NCBI GenBank assembly: GCA_015039365.1
Contig: WION01000007.1
Span: 372,001 to 436,000, forward strand
Source: Amanita rubescens
Taxonomy: Eukaryota; Basidiomycota; Agaricomycetes; Agaricales; Amanitaceae
Reading direction: 5' to 3'
DNA length: 64,000 nt
Made by a program: the position numbers and the translations under genes. Below, one piece after another: positions 30,451 to 37,920 of the stretch. Positions within the stretch are counted from its first letter, which is position 1. Each line of letters begins with the position of its first letter. The notes under the pieces were generated by a model. The model saw nothing but the letters and a program-made list of their open reading frames with translations, ran no database searches and was not told where the DNA came from.

Positions 30451-32010
30451 ATGTTCCGTGTACAAAAATGCATATCGCGCGCTCGGAATAGTCTTCCTTG
30501 CCATGGGTGACGTCCAGCTCCAATTCAACTCAAATGACCCTTCAATAACTTATTATCAAGGCTGGAATGCAGGTACTACCTCCCAGCCAGGCGCTATCGC
30601 CTGAAATATCTTTTAACGGTGAGAAAACGCGTTATGTTCCTGACAACCATTCTAACATCAAGGGCGGCACAGGCTCATTTATCACAGTTTTTGGGATTCT
30701 CCCAGCACTAGCCAACTCCTCGACAAACGCTTCCTTTATTCTCGATAACGGTCCACCCACCTATTTTTCCGCTAATTTGACAGACCAGATTTTCCAAAAT
30801 CAGCCACTCTTTCAGCCTAACGCTACACTCCAAGAGGGTTCCACATATCCTCCGTATTATCAACGGGGGCAGCAGCCTCGAGCTCGACTATTATACCATC
30901 ACCCCTCCCGTGTCAAGTCTCCTTATTCAGGTTGAGGACACAGACTCGTCAATCCTGTACGCCGGTCCCTGGAACACGACGCCCACTGTCGCAACACAGC
31001 CCAACTTTGATTCCACTCTCCATTCGACTAATTCACCGAACGCCAGTCTCATTTATTCTTTTACCGGCACATTCATCGCCATCTACGGTCTTTACCACCC
31101 CGGACCCGCTCCAAACGTCTCCTTCACCGTTGATTCCAGTCCCCCTGCACCGCTCCTTAACCCACCAGATCCCATAATTAGTGACATCTCGCAATCCCTC
31201 TTTTATCAATCCCCCGTTCTATCCGCTCAATCCCACACACTGACAGTAAACGTGGGCGAAAATAACCAAGGAGAATTCACCGTGGACTATTTGCTCGTCC
31301 AAACCACACCCACCTCCTCAACCGCCACCTCTAGTACAGCCACAAGTTCAACACTGGCAAGCAAATCGAGCTCAGTAAACGTAGGCGCTATCGCCGGAGG
31401 CGTATTAGGCGTCGTGGCTATCATCATTCTCCTCGTCCTTGCAATCATATATATACTTCGACGAAACAGATACCGCACCCCTACTTCTGAGAATAAAACC
31501 TCTTCTGCCTTTGCTCAACGCATACGAAGAATAGAAAAACGACTATCCGTCTCAGTCTGTACGTCCGCGCCACACTTTCTTTTTTTTATTAGTAACGAAC
31601 GATCCTTACCCTTGACAGTATCCCTCCGTTCTCAACGACGCACTTCCAACTCTCTTAGCCCACAAGAAGACCGAAGGACATACTACGTCGACGGGAGCGG
31701 TCGACCATTACGTGTATTCACCGGCCGCGGACGATCAAGCACCATGGGAACGACGATTGGAACCACCCCAACGACGTTGAGAATGCCAACCATCAACTTC
31801 TCCTCCTCCCCCAATGCTTCCACCTCGCATATTTCCCTGCCGAGATACCCACCTCCGGCGCGCCAAGGACGGACCCCTCCCGCCGCCGAACCTGACGTCG
31901 AAGCGGGTAACAACTCTGACATTAACGTTATTAACCCATCCACTTCTGCCGCCACCCTCGCCGTGATGTATGGCCACGATGAAAAGTTTGCCATGTTCGG
32001 TCAGCTATAG
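30451..32010 (+). CDS. Mucin-like single-span membrane protein, frame broken by +1 bases
   Basis: Basidiomycete-type surface protein: signal peptide (ALGIVFLAMG), two related extracellular beta-rich segments (VQLQFNSNDPSITYY ... GSFITVFGIL, then VEDTDSSILYAGPWN ... GTFIAIYGLYH), a Thr/Ser-rich stalk (TTPTSSTATSSTATSS), one transmembrane helix (VGAIAGGVLGVVAIIILLVLAIIYIL) and a basic cytoplasmic tail to TAG 32010. +1 skips are needed at about 30596-30604 (atcgcctgaaat) and 30841-30846 (ttccacatatcc), and perhaps one near 30460 if ATG 30451 is the start. An intron near 31555-31618 is likely. The extracellular part resembles carbohydrate-binding-like folds of this fungal family; function unknown. 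A decayed copy lies at 37322-37920. Confidence 0.65.
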
Positions 32011-32375
32011 AAACACCCGCAGTTATTAGATTGATTGTAAGTGTAAGTTATATAAGGATAAATTTAATGACTTTTTTCGAGTCGTTGCGTTATTTAAGGA
32101 TTTGTTTGTTTTCTGTATTTTGGTATTTGATACCTGCACTTTAGAGATCGGGTTAGGTAGAGGGTAGTAGCAATCAAATCACCACACGTAGCCTACACAA
32201 TTGATATCATTGCATTCTCAGAGCAAAGCAGACTGGAAATTTGGAATACTGGTACAGGATATAAGAGCTACTACAAGAGAGGCATATGTAAGGGAGAAAT
32301 GGGTTGATTTGGGTGAGCCTGGTATCTCAAATGAATGGTATAGTGGTGACTTTATGGATGAGATACAACATACCA
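32011..32375. other. Intergenic, left edge of AT-rich block
   Basis: No gene seen. Base composition turns visibly AT-rich from about 32030 onward and stays so to about 36660. Convergent 3' ends lie on both sides. Confidence 0.5.
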
Positions 32376-35300
32376 TCACTGGATGTTGATAGCTTTATCA
32401 TACAGGTATGCCAATAATTCCTCTTGATTAGAGGGAAGAGGCTCAGAGATAATTTGAGTCTTTATTTTCTCCACATAATCTTTTTGTGTGAAATCATCCA
32501 AAGCATTGACACTTGAAATTTGGATTGGCTCCCTTATCCAGAATGATAACTTGGCAATGATGGTAAGTGCTGTAGGATGTTAAGACTGAAAATGACATTG
32601 TTAACAACAAGCTACATTACCAACTAATTTCTGACAGCTTGCAAGCTGATTATGGTGATGTCAGTTATGTGTGCTTTTGCAGAAATTTATTCTTACAGTT
32701 ACTGAAAATGTTTCTGATTCCACTTCAAATATGGAATGAAGTTCATTCTAATCATGGCAACAAAAGTGAAACCCTCAAATTCAGCTCAGCAGTATATGTG
32801 CATACATTCTTGCACTTAAATCAGTATGCTATTAGTACTTTCTACAACTGCATTGCTTACCTAGAAATGCCACAATGATTGCAAAAAGCAATGAGGAAGA
32901 TGCTGCAAGGGAGTCTGTGGCTTCTCACAATCTGTGTAGCAGTGTAATTAATAATATTGGGATCAAAGAGGTAAAATAGAAAATGTTAACTCACTTTCTA
33001 TTAAAATCAATGAAAAAATGGATTCAAATTAATGTTGGATGTAGCTCACATGCTATTGGTAGTGAAGCATGAGATGTGATCAGCAGAAAGAACTGAAAGA
33101 GGACACACTAGCTGTTGATCCAAGCAATAATGATGTTGACTGAATAAAGAATGTGGTGTCACTCACAGCCTGTTAACATGGAATTGTAGAACTTCCTGGC
33201 AGCAGAATAGAGTAGCACCACTCACTGCCTGTCAGTCACAAGATGATATGTAATGTGAATACTGGTAGATTACAGTGCTGTGCTGCTCACTTCCTGTTGT
33301 TTATGAAGTTAGAACAAACAATGCTCCTGGGAAAGAATGGAGTGAATGTTAAACTCACAAGCTGTTGGGAATGAAACAGTGAGAAGAAACTGAAAGATGG
33401 TTGATTGCTACTCACTCCCTATAATATATAAATGAGATACATTTAGACTTCCAGCCAGAAACTCACTCACACTCTGATGATCATTTATTGAGCTATGATA
33501 TGAATGCTTGGTGAGAGCGAGCAAAGTATCACTTACTTTCTATTCCATATGATGAGGTGTGGCACTATTCCTACCAGAGAAAAGCAGTCCTACTCACCTC
33601 CTGTTAATCATGTAAGACTCCATAGCTAAAGCAAGTACAATCTGGCCACTCACTCTCTGTTGGTCATGGGATTAGGCATGGCAAGACTGCCTGCAACAGA
33701 AAAATCCACTTACATCCTGTACATTATTGTTGTGAATTTAGAATATCTGACACAGGAAAATAAAGTATAACCTACATGCTGCATATGGGATCAGATGTGG
33801 TGAGACCACCTGTGAGGAGAAAAGGACCTACAGTCTGATAATCATGGATGAAATGTATTATGTGCTAAGACTGTGGCCAGACAAAAGTACTATCTTACTC
33901 ACAGTCTTTTCATTCATAGAGTGACATATAGGTTGAAATGCAATGCAGTTAACTGGCAGAAAAATTGTGTGCTCACTTACTTGCTGTATGGGATGATGTA
34001 TATATAAAGTGAGTTTGCCTGCTGACCTGGTGCAACATCACTCACATATTGGCGCTGTTGGTCACAAGGTGAATATGAATAAAGAGTCCAGTATGTATAT
34101 CACTCACAGACTGTTGAATGATGTGCCACACAAATGTAATTTACCATGGAAAAGATCAATGTCACTGACCTCCTTTTGATCATAGGATGAGCAGTGAGAC
34201 TAGGTACATATCTTGCTAAAAAAAAGTGGGGCCCCTCACAGGCTGTTGGTTGCAGAATGGGATGTGATGAGATTTCCAGCAAAAAATGTGTGATTTCACT
34301 TGCATTCTTTTAGTCATAGAATGAGATTTGATCATGGTGATCTAGACAAAAGAAATGTAGTGCCACTCACAGGCTGTTGTTCATAAGATGAAATTGCCTA
34401 GCACAAAGTGTGCAATGTCATGACTTACATGCTGTTTCTCATGGGATTAGATTGCCTGGCAGAGTGAATGTGTGGTGTCACTCACATCCTATTGCTCACA
34501 GGGTGACATTATCATCTAGCAGAAAATTTATTATGTTACTCACTTCATTCTTTTTGTTGTGAATGCAACAGTGAGGCTGCCTGGAAGCAAAAGTATCTAT
34601 TGCCACTCACAAGCTGTGTATCATGGGAATAGCAATGATGGACAGCCTGGCAGAAAATGTAATTTACACTCACTGTCTATTTATTATGATGAGATTGCCT
34701 GGCAGGATAAACTTCAGTTAAGTCACCCACTGCCTACAGGATTTGATAAGATGTTATGAGATTGCATGACTCCAGAAAAGCATATGTTGCTCACAGCCTT
34801 TTGGTAATGCAATAAGATACAATGAGATTTCCAGCAGAAGAAATTGATGTGTGTCACTTACAGACTATTGGTCATAATAGAAGATGTGATAAGAAACAAC
34901 ACTGTTATTTTCATCATTGCTGCTCACACCCTGATAGTCATGACATGAGATTTTGCAGGACTTTTTGGTAAATAAAAGTGCAGTTTACTGACAAGCTGTT
35001 AACCACAAATGATAAGTTTGTAGGTGAAGAGGTGTAGTATAACCTACACTCTGTTGATCATGAGATCAAAGCACATAATAACTGTTTTGATAACACTTGC
35101 CCACTAACAAGTGCATGATAGTAGTATACCTAGATTGTTTTACTATATCACTCACCTGTACTTCATCATTCTGATAAATGTATGTAGTTTCATCATGACA
35201 GATCAGAGAAAACATAAAGCCTCATACATCCTGCCATTGAATCCAGATACTTGATATTTTGATGATGCATATTTTACTCACATCCTATTGTTTGTCCATT

Positions 35301-36592
35301 TTTAGGGTTTGTTTGTTTTCTCTGCTTGAAAACTTACTTTCCTGCTGACCTGCTTTCATTTAGAATTTGCATACATTGTTTTATATTTGTCATACCCAGT
35401 AATGTGGAAATTTGAGAAAAACCATGATAACAATATTAATCCAGACTCGCTGTTCTCCTTTGCTCAGGGCATATCTAGTGGGATTGTCAAATCTGGTATT
35501 GAAAGATTAACCATGATTCTCACTCTAGTGCAGCTTTGACATGCAGATCAAGGTTGTTCATTTGTGTTGAGATAAACAATTGTCGTAGGCTGGCATCATC
35601 AATTGAATTAGCAGTTGCCTCAGACAATTCAGGACAGTCATTTTCTGGTAGGTCCATATCTGTAACATCATTTTGTCACTACATTTGTTTTTATAATGGA
35701 CAGTGTTCATCAGTATCACCTTGCAATCGTACATAGGCTTTTGGTGGATGTTGAGTACTCATGACTTTAGGAAGATAAATTTCCTGGAAACTCTTGTCAG
35801 CATTAATGTTGGCCATGTCCCACCTGTTTTTGCCATTCTCTATATCATTCAATTTGGCATATTCATGGATTATTTGACCATCAAATTTGGTGAACACAGT
35901 CACCAAAGGAACTGTGGAGCAGAGTACCAAGAGAAACCCAAGTGAAACATTTGGCTTCAATGAAGCTTACCATTTCCTGTCCCTTTATTAAAAAACTCAA
36001 GTTCTGCAGATAAAAGAGGGCGAGGGCTGTCCATGGGTATGCAATACCTATGAATAGCTTGGTCAATGTGTGAAAAGGTTCAATACCATTGAGGATACCA
36101 TATTGTGTGCAACTGGTTCCTCAGCTCTCTTTCAGCAGAACACATCTCAATAAATTTCCAGACAATTTCTATCTCCTCTCTTCCTCCAGATTCAAAACCC
36201 TGTGAGTCATGGAAGATAAAGTTGCTTCCATCATATGTAATCTGATGCTCAATTTCATGTAAACCTCTCTAATGATTCATTGCATATTAAATATTATTTC
36301 TACATAACCTGTAATTTGACTCACCTCAATTGTTGGTGTGAAAGAGGCTTGCAGTGGTTCACCTGAAATGCACTGAACATACATTGAAAGTGCCTGTCCT
36401 TTGGCTTAACTTACCATTGTGGTCAAGTATGATGGGCTTTGTTCCATGAGCCACACCACAGACCTTTTCAAGAATAGTTGTTTTGCCAGCATTTGCTCTT
36501 CCTATTACAAGGATACGAAATTGGGAGCATTTGTATCTCTCCTTGAGCAATGCAGTACTATGCTCTATCATGTCTGTGCCTGATGCACACAT
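32376..36592 (-). CDS. P-loop GTPase with a 39-member microexon array
   Basis: Fungal GTPase of the GRANAGKTT type. Exons, minus strand: 36415-36592 (MCASGTDMIEHS..., G1 loop VIGRANAGKTT), 36325-36362, 36099-36268 (G3-like FHDSQGFESGG), 35971-36047, 35720-35911 (G4 TVFTKFDG; HPPKAYVRL), 35524-35659 (SLRQLFISTQ), 35396-35492 (IVIMVFLKFPHYW, possibly membrane-associated), then the microexon array (35349 down to 32929), then 32697-32747 (NELHSIFEVESETFSVT), 32636-32645, and 32376-32569 (LTIIAKLSFWIRE ... AINIQ-stop). Each junction is GT-AG except one GC-AG. Exon lengths sum to 1290 nt, one frame of 430 codons, no internal stop. Start is the first ATG before the G1 loop; an upstream exon is possible. 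Base and codon use are AT-rich unlike neighbours. Role unknown. Confidence 0.78.
32929..35349 (-). repeat. Tandem array of 39 microexons in ~60-nt intron units
   Basis: On the minus strand the region is a run of units built as YAG, microexon, GTRAGT. Reading from 35349 downward the microexons are 12, 3, 3, 15 nt, then 3-nt ones except for a 6-nt (34544-34549) and a 9-nt (34046-34054) unit; 35 of 39 are exactly 3 nt and all are multiples of three. Examples on plus coordinates: 35282-35284, 34862-34864, 34371-34373, 33903-33905, 33167-33169, 32929-32931. Mean spacing is about 63 bases. Intron interiors share a faded core (ctgccaggcaatctcatc, then tatgaccaacag), so the array grew by tandem duplication. 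No unit has lost a splice dinucleotide; one donor is GC (34301-34303). Joined, they add 49 residues in phase 0. Confidence 0.85.
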
Positions 36593-37321
36593 GTAAATTG
36601 GTGAACTTGATTGAGACAACCTTTCAACTTACTCAAAGAGTGAATGCCAACGGTGGTACCCAACACCATGGCTAATGTTGTGCTAATACAGTAGAGGCTT
36701 CTAACAGCAAACAATTGTATCAAGAGATGAGATTGAGAATGAGGTGATTATGTAGGAAAGTGTGAGATAAGGGATGCCAGCGGTTAGGTGTCTTGGGGAG
36801 GGGGTGCGCAGCACGGCGTCGGGGAAGTGGTGAGAGCACGACCCGGGCCTGGGAACGATGGCACGCTCTACCGAATGGATGAGCAGGCAAAGGTAAATTG
36901 GGCCTGGAGGAGCAATGTATAAACTTCTCCGATGGTTACTCAAATCTGCCGGTTACGTAAGGCCGTCCAAGTGCGATCGAAGCGCGATAGGGCCGTAGGA
37001 TCAGCCTTGAGGGATGATGGATCTGGGTGCGTTGCGTTCGAGAGAGAATGCGAAAGACGAGGGACGCTATCTAGTATCACGATGAGAGAAAACTATTGAG
37101 TGATACTAGGCGTCCGAGTTTGTGAACAGTGCGGCTGACAAACAAGTGACCGATCAACCCAAGTCTTCCAACAAGTTCGGGTACGGCGTTGCGTCCGAGG
37201 GAGAACGTCAGAACGACCAAGTTTTCTGGCAGCACCTAACTTATGTGTCACTTAACTCGCTAATAAATGACAAACAAGGTGTCTCCGCCACCGACGGTAG
37301 CCCTTGACGCCAGCCCCGTCT
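36593..37321. other. Upstream region of the GTPase gene
   Basis: No gene recognised. AT-rich composition ends near 36660 and changes to the GC level of the rest of the window. A possible 5' exon (ATG near 36671) is followed by a donor-like gtaagt, but it does not join in frame with the GTPase exon. Confidence 0.4.
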
Positions 37322-37920
37322 ATGCATATTCGCCGCCGTCTGCGCTAGATCACTCCCAAACGACACCGGTTCACCCTACATCGACTCCAACTTTCTAGCC
37401 TATCACCCGTGATATTTTGCGATATCTCCCACACGATATCCTTCTAGACCCACACGCAAACAATTAACCTTGGGGAAAACAATCAAGGAGGATTATTTGC
37501 TCATCTTCTCCATCCTCAGCCGCCAACCCTACACTTCCGTCACCACAGGTATAAGTTTGACACTGGCAAGCACATCAGGCTTAAAGAACGTAGGTGTGTT
37601 AGGCACCGTATCTCTCACCATTTTTCTCGCCCTCCCTTGCAATCATATATGTATTCCAACGAAACACATACCCCACTACATACTACGAAGAAAAACCCTT
37701 CTTCTTTTATCCAGCGCATACAAAGAATAGCAAAACAGCTATCCATGTCGGCAGGCTGTACGTTCGGAACTCCCACACGCACCCTCCCCCAATCAACTCT
37801 TTACGCAGCGTCCACTATCAACGACATTCCTAAAACACACCCACCCACTCGAAGATCGAAGAACATACTACACGGACGGGAGCGGTCAGCCCTTGTTGCC
37901 TGGCCACGCGCGATCTGACA
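37322..37920 (+). pseudogene. Decayed copy of the 30.4-32 kb membrane-protein gene
   Basis: Collinear with about 31080-31750 of the intact gene: GENNQG.....DYLL stretch (37466-37505), the LTLAS stalk region, a broken transmembrane region near 37600-37660, the tail ...FIQRIQRIAKQLS (intact gene: FAQRIRRIEKRLS), and the YY.DGSG-like end near 37870-37890. Deletions and frame changes rule out a product. Only the 3' half of the gene is present. Confidence 0.8.

Follow-up and report, generated by a model that had tools for sequence, protein, structure and literature searches.

Probable runs of single-codon exons in a GTPase-like gene family of the mushroom Amanita rubescens

Introduction

Can a protein be assembled from dozens of consecutive exons of a single codon each? 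This question is raised by a 64,000-nucleotide (nt) stretch of the Amanita rubescens genome (contig WION01000007.1, positions 372,001 to 436,000; hereafter the window), on the minus strand of which a GTPase gene is interrupted, from 35395 to 32748, by back-to-back introns of about 58 nt around 40 parsed microexons, 36 of them single-codon. Our analysis indicated with high confidence that this block is coding, a "codon array" that specifies a segment of approximately 50–90 residues between the GTPase part and the conserved C-terminal part at about one codon per exon. The architecture is common to all family members examined, and in the family's transcript-like proteins the predicted triplets are read in order as a continuous frame. 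Splicing of the window copy itself was deduced from these relatives, since no transcript of that copy was found.

Structure of the array in the window

The exons were listed by a parse that required GT or GC donors, AG acceptors, lengths of 3–15 nt in multiples of three and no stop codon, so that these properties are not tests of the listing. It returned 36 exons of 3 nt and one each of 6, 9, 12 and 15 nt, together encoding 50 residues, with a microexon count uncertain by one either way. The intron before each microexon was 46–75 nt long, and the donors were GT except for two GC sites (35100 and 34303). The initial annotation had recognized a real array but counted one too few throughout (39 microexons, 35 single-codon, 49 residues), and had noted one GC donor instead of two. 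The gene is organized up to the end of the array as follows.

32376..36669, minus strand: whole GTPase gene, from the sequence; start MVLGTTVGIHS.. according to public model P0034, stop TGA at 32378-32376
35396..36669, minus strand: GTPase part in ordinary exons, with the P-loop GRANAGKTT
35492-35396, minus strand: last ordinary exon before the array, ending ..KFPHYW in phase 0
32929..35349, minus strand: array of 40 microexons, from the parse that lists each exon with coordinates, with a chance control
35349-35338, minus strand: 12-nt array exon, VSRK (parse)
35170-35156, minus strand: 15-nt array exon, NDEVQ (parse)
35101..35103, minus strand: one-codon exon, TGG (W), with a GC donor after it; in the place of the W of the paralog peptide ..EIDWFERAD..
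34549-34544, minus strand: 6-nt array exon, NE (parse)
34054-34046, minus strand: 9-nt array exon, RQY (parse)
32929..32931, minus strand: ATT (I), the final one-codon exon of the array (parse); an ATT exon lies near here in 16 of 17 arrays

When the stop rule was removed, the parse of the window copy was still free of stops, in agreement with the initial annotation. The score of that parse barely changed when exon length was left free (464 vs. 460) but fell to 148 and 87 when lengths were constrained to 1 and 2 modulo 3, respectively. The minus strand of the window carried 49 sites of the AG-NNN-GTRRG type, 32 of which fell within the one block; control exon lengths of 1, 2 and 4–9 nt gave 7–15 sites each on the same strand, and the plus strand gave 12–22 sites at any exon length, all unclustered. 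Chance clustering of triplet sites was rejected on the basis of these length and strand controls and of the genome-wide exon-length controls described below. A short-period tandem repeat was also rejected, with Tandem Repeats Finder listing none at the block.

Transcript-like proteins of the family

A protein search with a predicted spliced protein returned short Joint Genome Institute (JGI) contigs whose proteins read straight through. Eighteen JGI proteins were fetched, of which 16 reached the FPHxW region and 7 of these 16 continued to the C-terminal part, including P0002 (478 residues from a 1,486-nt contig), P0003, P0004, P0024 and P0068, on contigs of 1.4–1.7 kb. Protein P0094 (295 residues, 1,107-nt contig), the GTPase part of which is nearly identical to A. 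rubescens model P0023, corresponds to a genomic locus (C46) that takes approximately 4.7 kb for the same stretch. An intron-free contig of 1.1 kb facing 4.7 kb of genomic DNA is most simply explained as RNA-derived.

Threading P0094 through the 3.9-kb C46 array used 62 consecutive microexons, 59 of them single-codon, with 70 of 71 residues identical, 61 GT donors and one GC donor, and AG at every acceptor; none of 200 shuffled P0094 peptides could be threaded under the same rules. A frame-free parse of C46 made without the transcript letters, but with identical end points, found 55 three-nt exons, 54 of which agreed with P0094. For P0102, threading through locus L056 with three mismatches allowed recovered 31 residues, 28 identical, over 17 exons (14 single-codon), compared to a longest thread among 100 shuffles each of 6 at L056 and 8 at L057, a copy with identical flanks. 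Microexon size was observed in the parsed arrays, and inclusion in the message was seen at C46 and L056 via these transcript-like proteins. At the level of the family, the initial proposal that the triplets are real exons was therefore borne out by residue-by-residue matches as well as by the relatedness of the family peptides. The segment is also the most divergent part in P0003 and P0004, which agree at 279 of 292 positions in the GTPase part and 84 of 89 in the C-terminus vs. 37 of 61, with 21 gaps, in the segment.

Coding signatures and selection on splice sites

A frame-free parse, which used neither frame nor exonic letters but scored intron letters after initial training on 3-nt units, was extended to the last exon with a charge of 3 bits for exons longer than 18 nt. 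Of 922 internal exons in 16 arrays, counted with near-identical pairs, 795 measured exactly 3 nt. A further 117 exons had lengths other than 0 or 3 nt; 59 of these lengths were divisible by three, which is above one third, although blurred by parsing errors. Because the units may be copies of each other, the 3-nt length could have been inherited, and multiples of three alone would not prove coding; this argument was consequently not used.

Counts of stops, codons and intron likeness were made on 14 of the 17 arrays, one of each near-identical pair being left out. In the parse without the stop rule, none of 679 single-codon exons was a stop, compared to 43.2 expected from the base composition by position. 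Only 3 of these 679 codons ended in C, vs. 295 of 1,347 codons taken around five conserved GTPase motifs (where a few intron letters may be included), and for two-fold codons the C:T ratio was 1:207 in the arrays vs. 115:212 around the motifs (p=1.4e-27). Codons ending in C are nearly absent since the last codon base is position −1 of the donor. Many paralog peptides are related: they begin with a 12-nt exon such as VDRE or IDKK, proceed as ..NEIDWFERAD..AG.ER.. and end in ..ERDKRQQFxKxxI. Of 91 pairs of independent arrays compared with shuffled codon order, 32 had z>3 and 22 z>5, a spread indicating that peptide likeness exists within subfamilies rather than family-wide.

The initial annotation had argued that conserved junctions combined with drifting interiors imply selection for splicing, and an alignment of two paralogous arrays (L012 and L013) upheld this: GT differed at 1 of 106 donors (0.9%) and AG at 2 of 110 acceptors (1.8%), with two more donors in alignment gaps, vs. 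532 of 2,238 interior positions (24%). Codon positions 1 and 2 differed by 20% and position 3 by 31%. Between the window haplotype and its counterpart on contig C213, no difference was found at 78 GT and 78 AG sites, and 2 of 47 codons differed. Splice sites in the family are under purifying selection. The remaining alignments did not enter this comparison: L015/L016, L022/L025, L027/L028 and L020/L026 held 0–1 substitutions, useless for rates; L022/L017 (33% different) and L011/L023 (56%) were no alleles as aligned; and pooled paralog alignments (L012/L013 at 21%, four at 37–41%) were left out because repeats were possibly misaligned, L012/L013 being redone alone.

Gene family and genome-wide extent

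The window lies on contig C650 of a 75.7-Mb assembly, which also contains numerous paralogs and, on C213, the gene copy of the other haplotype; the block is not an isolated case but one member of a large family. Fetched loci contained 50 FPHxW-GT sites, 31 of them distinct by flanking sequence, and each of these 31 was followed within 900 nt by 6–11 AG-NNN-GTRRG sites. Over the whole genome, and whichever gene the matches fell in, a strict two-unit pattern with 3-nt exons matched 6,203 times (reversed-pattern control, 11) and a three-unit pattern 4,617 times (control, 0). With exons of 2, 4 and 6 nt the two-unit counts were 14, 14 and 16 and their reversed controls 49, 85 and 18, so that the controls exceeded the true counts at these lengths and were far below the true count at 3 nt. 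The 14 independent arrays contained 142 strict triples, about 10 per array, from which we extrapolate very roughly to some 450 arrays over both haplotypes. These 14 arrays comprised 19–90 introns each, with a mean length of 58.3 nt over 729 introns in a table limited to introns of 40–80 nt. Of the 14 two-unit matches with 2-nt "exons" in the genome, five clustered close to GTPase hits (G000:C749:2463-3950, minus strand), possibly an out-of-frame array or an alternative parse of 3-nt units.

As had been anticipated in the initial annotation, gene models miss the block: P0034 stops one exon short of the array, the other A. rubescens models examined end at it, run into it or skip it, and the A. 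rubescens and A. brunnescens models returned by the protein search mostly end near FPHxW. In other mushrooms, GTPase models P0082 (Lyophyllum), P0084, P0101 and P0116 (Mycena), P0110 (Favolaschia) and P0113 (Phlegmacium) end or become irregular just past FPHxW or FPHC. Arrays may exist there, or the segment may be absent.

Alternative explanations

Several observations weigh against a spliced coding array. For the window gene itself, no counterpart was found among the transcript-like proteins, and the window microexon peptide did not resemble the paralog peptides above chance (z −1.3 to 1.8), so that only the anatomy is shared. The RNA origin of the JGI contigs was deduced from their shortness and not from a record label, and P0094 differs from the genome at one residue in the segment and several elsewhere, indicating that it derives from another allele, strain or near relative. 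Nine proteins (P0013, P0018, P0020, P0035, P0060, P0069, P0086, P0098 and P0103) showed no recognizable read-through, which reflects a contig end, missplicing, a frameshift or another structure in the family; for P0020 and P0013, no thread was obtained through the loci tried. In 8 of 16 arrays, the parse without stop rule also produced 1–2 longer "exons" containing stops, which are most likely artefacts of the parse, and a stricter chain ended early in L012 and L013 (after 16 microexons) and L021 (after 6). A unit may have lost a site there, or the parse fails; the intactness of each donor and acceptor, stated initially for the window block, therefore does not extend to the whole family. The median z over the 91 array pairs was only 1.1, and the codon changes between L012 and L013 (27 non-synonymous, 4 synonymous) approached the intron rate, implying that the residues themselves drift there. 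Finally, the excess likeness of adjacent introns was below 1.2 score units in 4 of 14 arrays.

These points must be set against the available alternatives. A single 2.65-kb intron carrying a decayed minisatellite, with 35396 joined straight to 32747 and the splice-like triplets as remnants, would explain why the units resemble tandem repeats of common descent and why gene model P0038 links ..FPHYW to a downstream exon with only five residues between. We regard it as extremely unlikely, given that the codons are present in order in transcript-like proteins (P0094 contradicts it for the family), that no stop occurred among 679 triplets, that GT and AG changed by 0.9 and 1.8% vs. 24% in the interiors, and that peptides are conserved between many paralogs. 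That the window copy specifically is a dying pseudogene, its array drifted and no longer spliced, is improbable. Its peptide could not be aligned with those of the paralogs, and a 6.3-kb insertion interrupts one array donor on the other haplotype, but a chain of normal-length introns can be drawn across the whole block with sound splice sites (as the parse demanded), no stop appeared without the stop rule, the GTPase part and C-terminus are open, and the haplotypes differ at 0 of 78 GT, 0 of 78 AG and 2 of 47 codons.

Two further explanations accept the exons and concern their use or their origin. The symmetric, phase-0 exons would suit combinatorial alternative splicing, in which in-frame skipping yields many peptides per gene, and P0013, P0020 and P0060 deviate from the expected reading in or after the segment. 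Such a role appears unlikely, since every predicted exon is included in P0094 and the differences between P0003 and P0004 can be those of paralogs or alleles, as the genome holds such variants. There is little likelihood, likewise, that a contiguous exon was invaded at each codon boundary by dispersed introner-type elements, with no duplication of units. Tabulation of the first 20 and last 24 intron positions did reveal a weak consensus outside the splice sites, yet random insertion would not be expected to hit almost all codon boundaries, always in phase 0, array size varies (19–90 introns among 14 arrays), and neighbouring introns are the most alike. Introners are recognized as near-identical introns that are dispersed, with target-site duplications, over many unrelated genes; the arrays read here, from the GTPase family, show tandem, diverged introns. 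A coding array of mostly single-codon exons accounts best for the family.

Gene organization downstream of the array

Past the last single-codon exon, the window gene continues to its stop codon through the following features.

32860..32861, minus strand: zero-length exon, an acceptor AG touching donor GTAAGC (ratchet-like point; parse)
32806..32814, minus strand: probable 9-nt exon TGCAAGAAT (CKN), placed indirectly and with uncertain bounds
32697..32747, minus strand: first ordinary exon past the array, NELHSIFEVESETFSVT, 51 nt, phase 0, encoding NELHSIF.. (sequence)
32621..32645, minus strand: 25-nt exon LASCQKLV+G, of identical length in 16 of 16 loci examined
32376..32569, minus strand: last exon, ..LTIIAKLSFWI..AINIQ-stop, conserved in paralogs

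At the position of the CKN exon, most paralogs apparently have one Leu or Phe codon, and the short exon before NELHSIF may alternatively be HTDLS at 32828-32814, as printed by the parse, instead of CKN at 32814-32806. The P-loop GRANAGKTT indicates that the window protein probably works like a GTPase. Its match to Pfam MMR_HSR1 (PF01926) had an E-value of 4.4e-4 and 20.8 bits, below the gathering cut-off of 21.9 bits, and PF01926 is present in the precomputed annotation of some relatives. A Pfam search with the segment of six transcript-like proteins gave no match, and no sequence relative of the alignment was found in the PDB.

The region around the gene (32001-36000) forms an island of low G+C content, 0.36–0.39 per kb vs. 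0.43–0.57 elsewhere in the window. The gene is flanked by open frames at 30781-32010 and 37448-37918, both on the plus strand and both with a GENNQG motif, as if it sat between two copies of another gene; the former also has a transmembrane-like stretch.

Proposed splicing and origin of the arrays

Array introns have GTRAGT donors and a compact 3' end with the consensus ATGACCAACAG. A TRAY motif positioned 8 nt upstream of the exon, a plausible branch site, occurs in 233 of 729 introns. Sites only 3 nt apart should not be occupied simultaneously, and for this reason we infer that the introns are removed stepwise under intron definition, in a recursive-like manner in which each removal would add one codon to the upstream exon and expose the next donor. 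Removal would have to be sequential or alternate, each event joining one codon to a neighbour. All 17 arrays (14 independent) had an AG|GT junction in the last 330 nt ahead of the next ordinary exon, with two such sites in L027 and its copy L028. In P0094 the residues I and F that flank this region are adjacent, as is equally expected of a ratchet point and of one longer intron. The arrays would supply an expanded GTPase family with a segment that is variable and largely hydrophilic; that this segment serves as a recognition surface is a guess based on copy number and variability.

The segment probably grows by duplication of a unit of one codon and one intron. Intron interiors within an array scored above shuffled sequences in 14 of 14 arrays, barely so in L024, with shuffles that preserve single-base composition only, and adjacent introns were more alike than distant ones in 14 of 14 arrays, strongly in three. 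On C213 (L010), one extra complete unit, a GCA codon and its intron, is present directly ahead of the counterpart of window exon 33716-33714, a copy-number polymorphism of a single codon–intron unit. The same copy (G000:C213:20168-26457, L009/L010) carries at an array donor the 6.3-kb insertion, with ends TG..CA and a 5-bp direct repeat GTGGG, which looks like a long terminal repeat (LTR) element. Together, the divergence of the P0003 and P0004 segments, the extra C213 unit and the likeness of introns fit gain and loss of whole units, and the arrays may thus have arisen, and may still change, by tandem duplication and loss. The reading frame is kept at any unit number because each unit consists of a whole codon and a complete intron.

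On this basis the arrays could constitute a codon-scale diversity engine, in which the intron acts as recombination handle and the codon as payload, so that a hypervariable segment evolves one residue at a time. We consider this quite possible, if short of probable. Unequal exchange or slippage of units of about 61 nt could add, remove or swap single amino acids without breaking the frame, perhaps for self/non-self or immune recognition, at the cost of dozens of obligatory sequential splicings per message.

Comparison with known systems

Microexons in filamentous fungi are represented by Xlr2 of Trichoderma virens, which has one functional microexon of 20 nt that is regulated by glucose; its authors stated in 2024 that no earlier functional microexon had been described in filamentous fungi (PMC11121469). 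The arrays share with Xlr2 the occurrence of microexons in a filamentous fungus but contain dozens, nearly all of a single codon. Our search for consecutive single-codon exons found no report in the open-access literature, most subscription journals lying outside that search. Fungal stwintrons require consecutive excision and some have multiplied as sequence-similar sets (PMC8469720, PMC9024468), but they are nested, one interrupting a splice site of another, whereas array introns lie side by side with a codon between; those of C46 are complete GT/GC..AG units separated by the codons found in P0094, unlike stwintrons.

Among animals, the micro-exon genes (MEGs) of schistosomes are a multigene family with runs of very small symmetric exons that remain in frame whichever are included (PMC4350168). 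By description, the arrays resemble MEGs in their symmetric exons and in belonging to a multigene family. They differ in that the coding region of MEGs consists mostly of very small exons, while here the array provides approximately 50 of 430 residues in the window and 71 residues at C46, and in that the array exons are nearly all single-codon and occupy only an internal part of a mushroom GTPase. Single microexons of 3 bp in Drosophila homothorax and 1 nt in Arabidopsis APC11 demonstrate that the spliceosome can join such exons (PMC7392893); each of these genes has one, vs. dozens in a row in the Amanita arrays. Recursive splicing at ratchet points, or zero-nucleotide exons, subdivides long introns in the known cases (PMC8605326, PMC13149111). 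The AG|GT junction near the array ends, known here from the sequence, and the stepwise removal that is natural for adjacent sites are reminiscent of it, but each array step would add one codon, the introns are about 58 nt long, and acceptor and donor are 3 nt apart. Three-nt exons, symmetric microexons and recursive splicing are already known; runs of dozens of single-codon exons are, as far as the open-access search reaches, new.

If 62 consecutive introns with mostly 3-nt exons at their flanks are spliced with enough accuracy to yield protein, exon size sets no lower bound for intron-defined splicing. The arrays are naturally suited to studying the recognition of microexons and ratchet points. 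Codon choice in them is visibly dictated by the donor site. The public models examined lack the segment, and almost all lack the C-terminal part that follows, a loss of about a third of the protein; a similar loss may hold in other mushrooms whose models stop at the same motif. The arrays further suggest that a protein can be lengthened one residue at a time through intron duplication.

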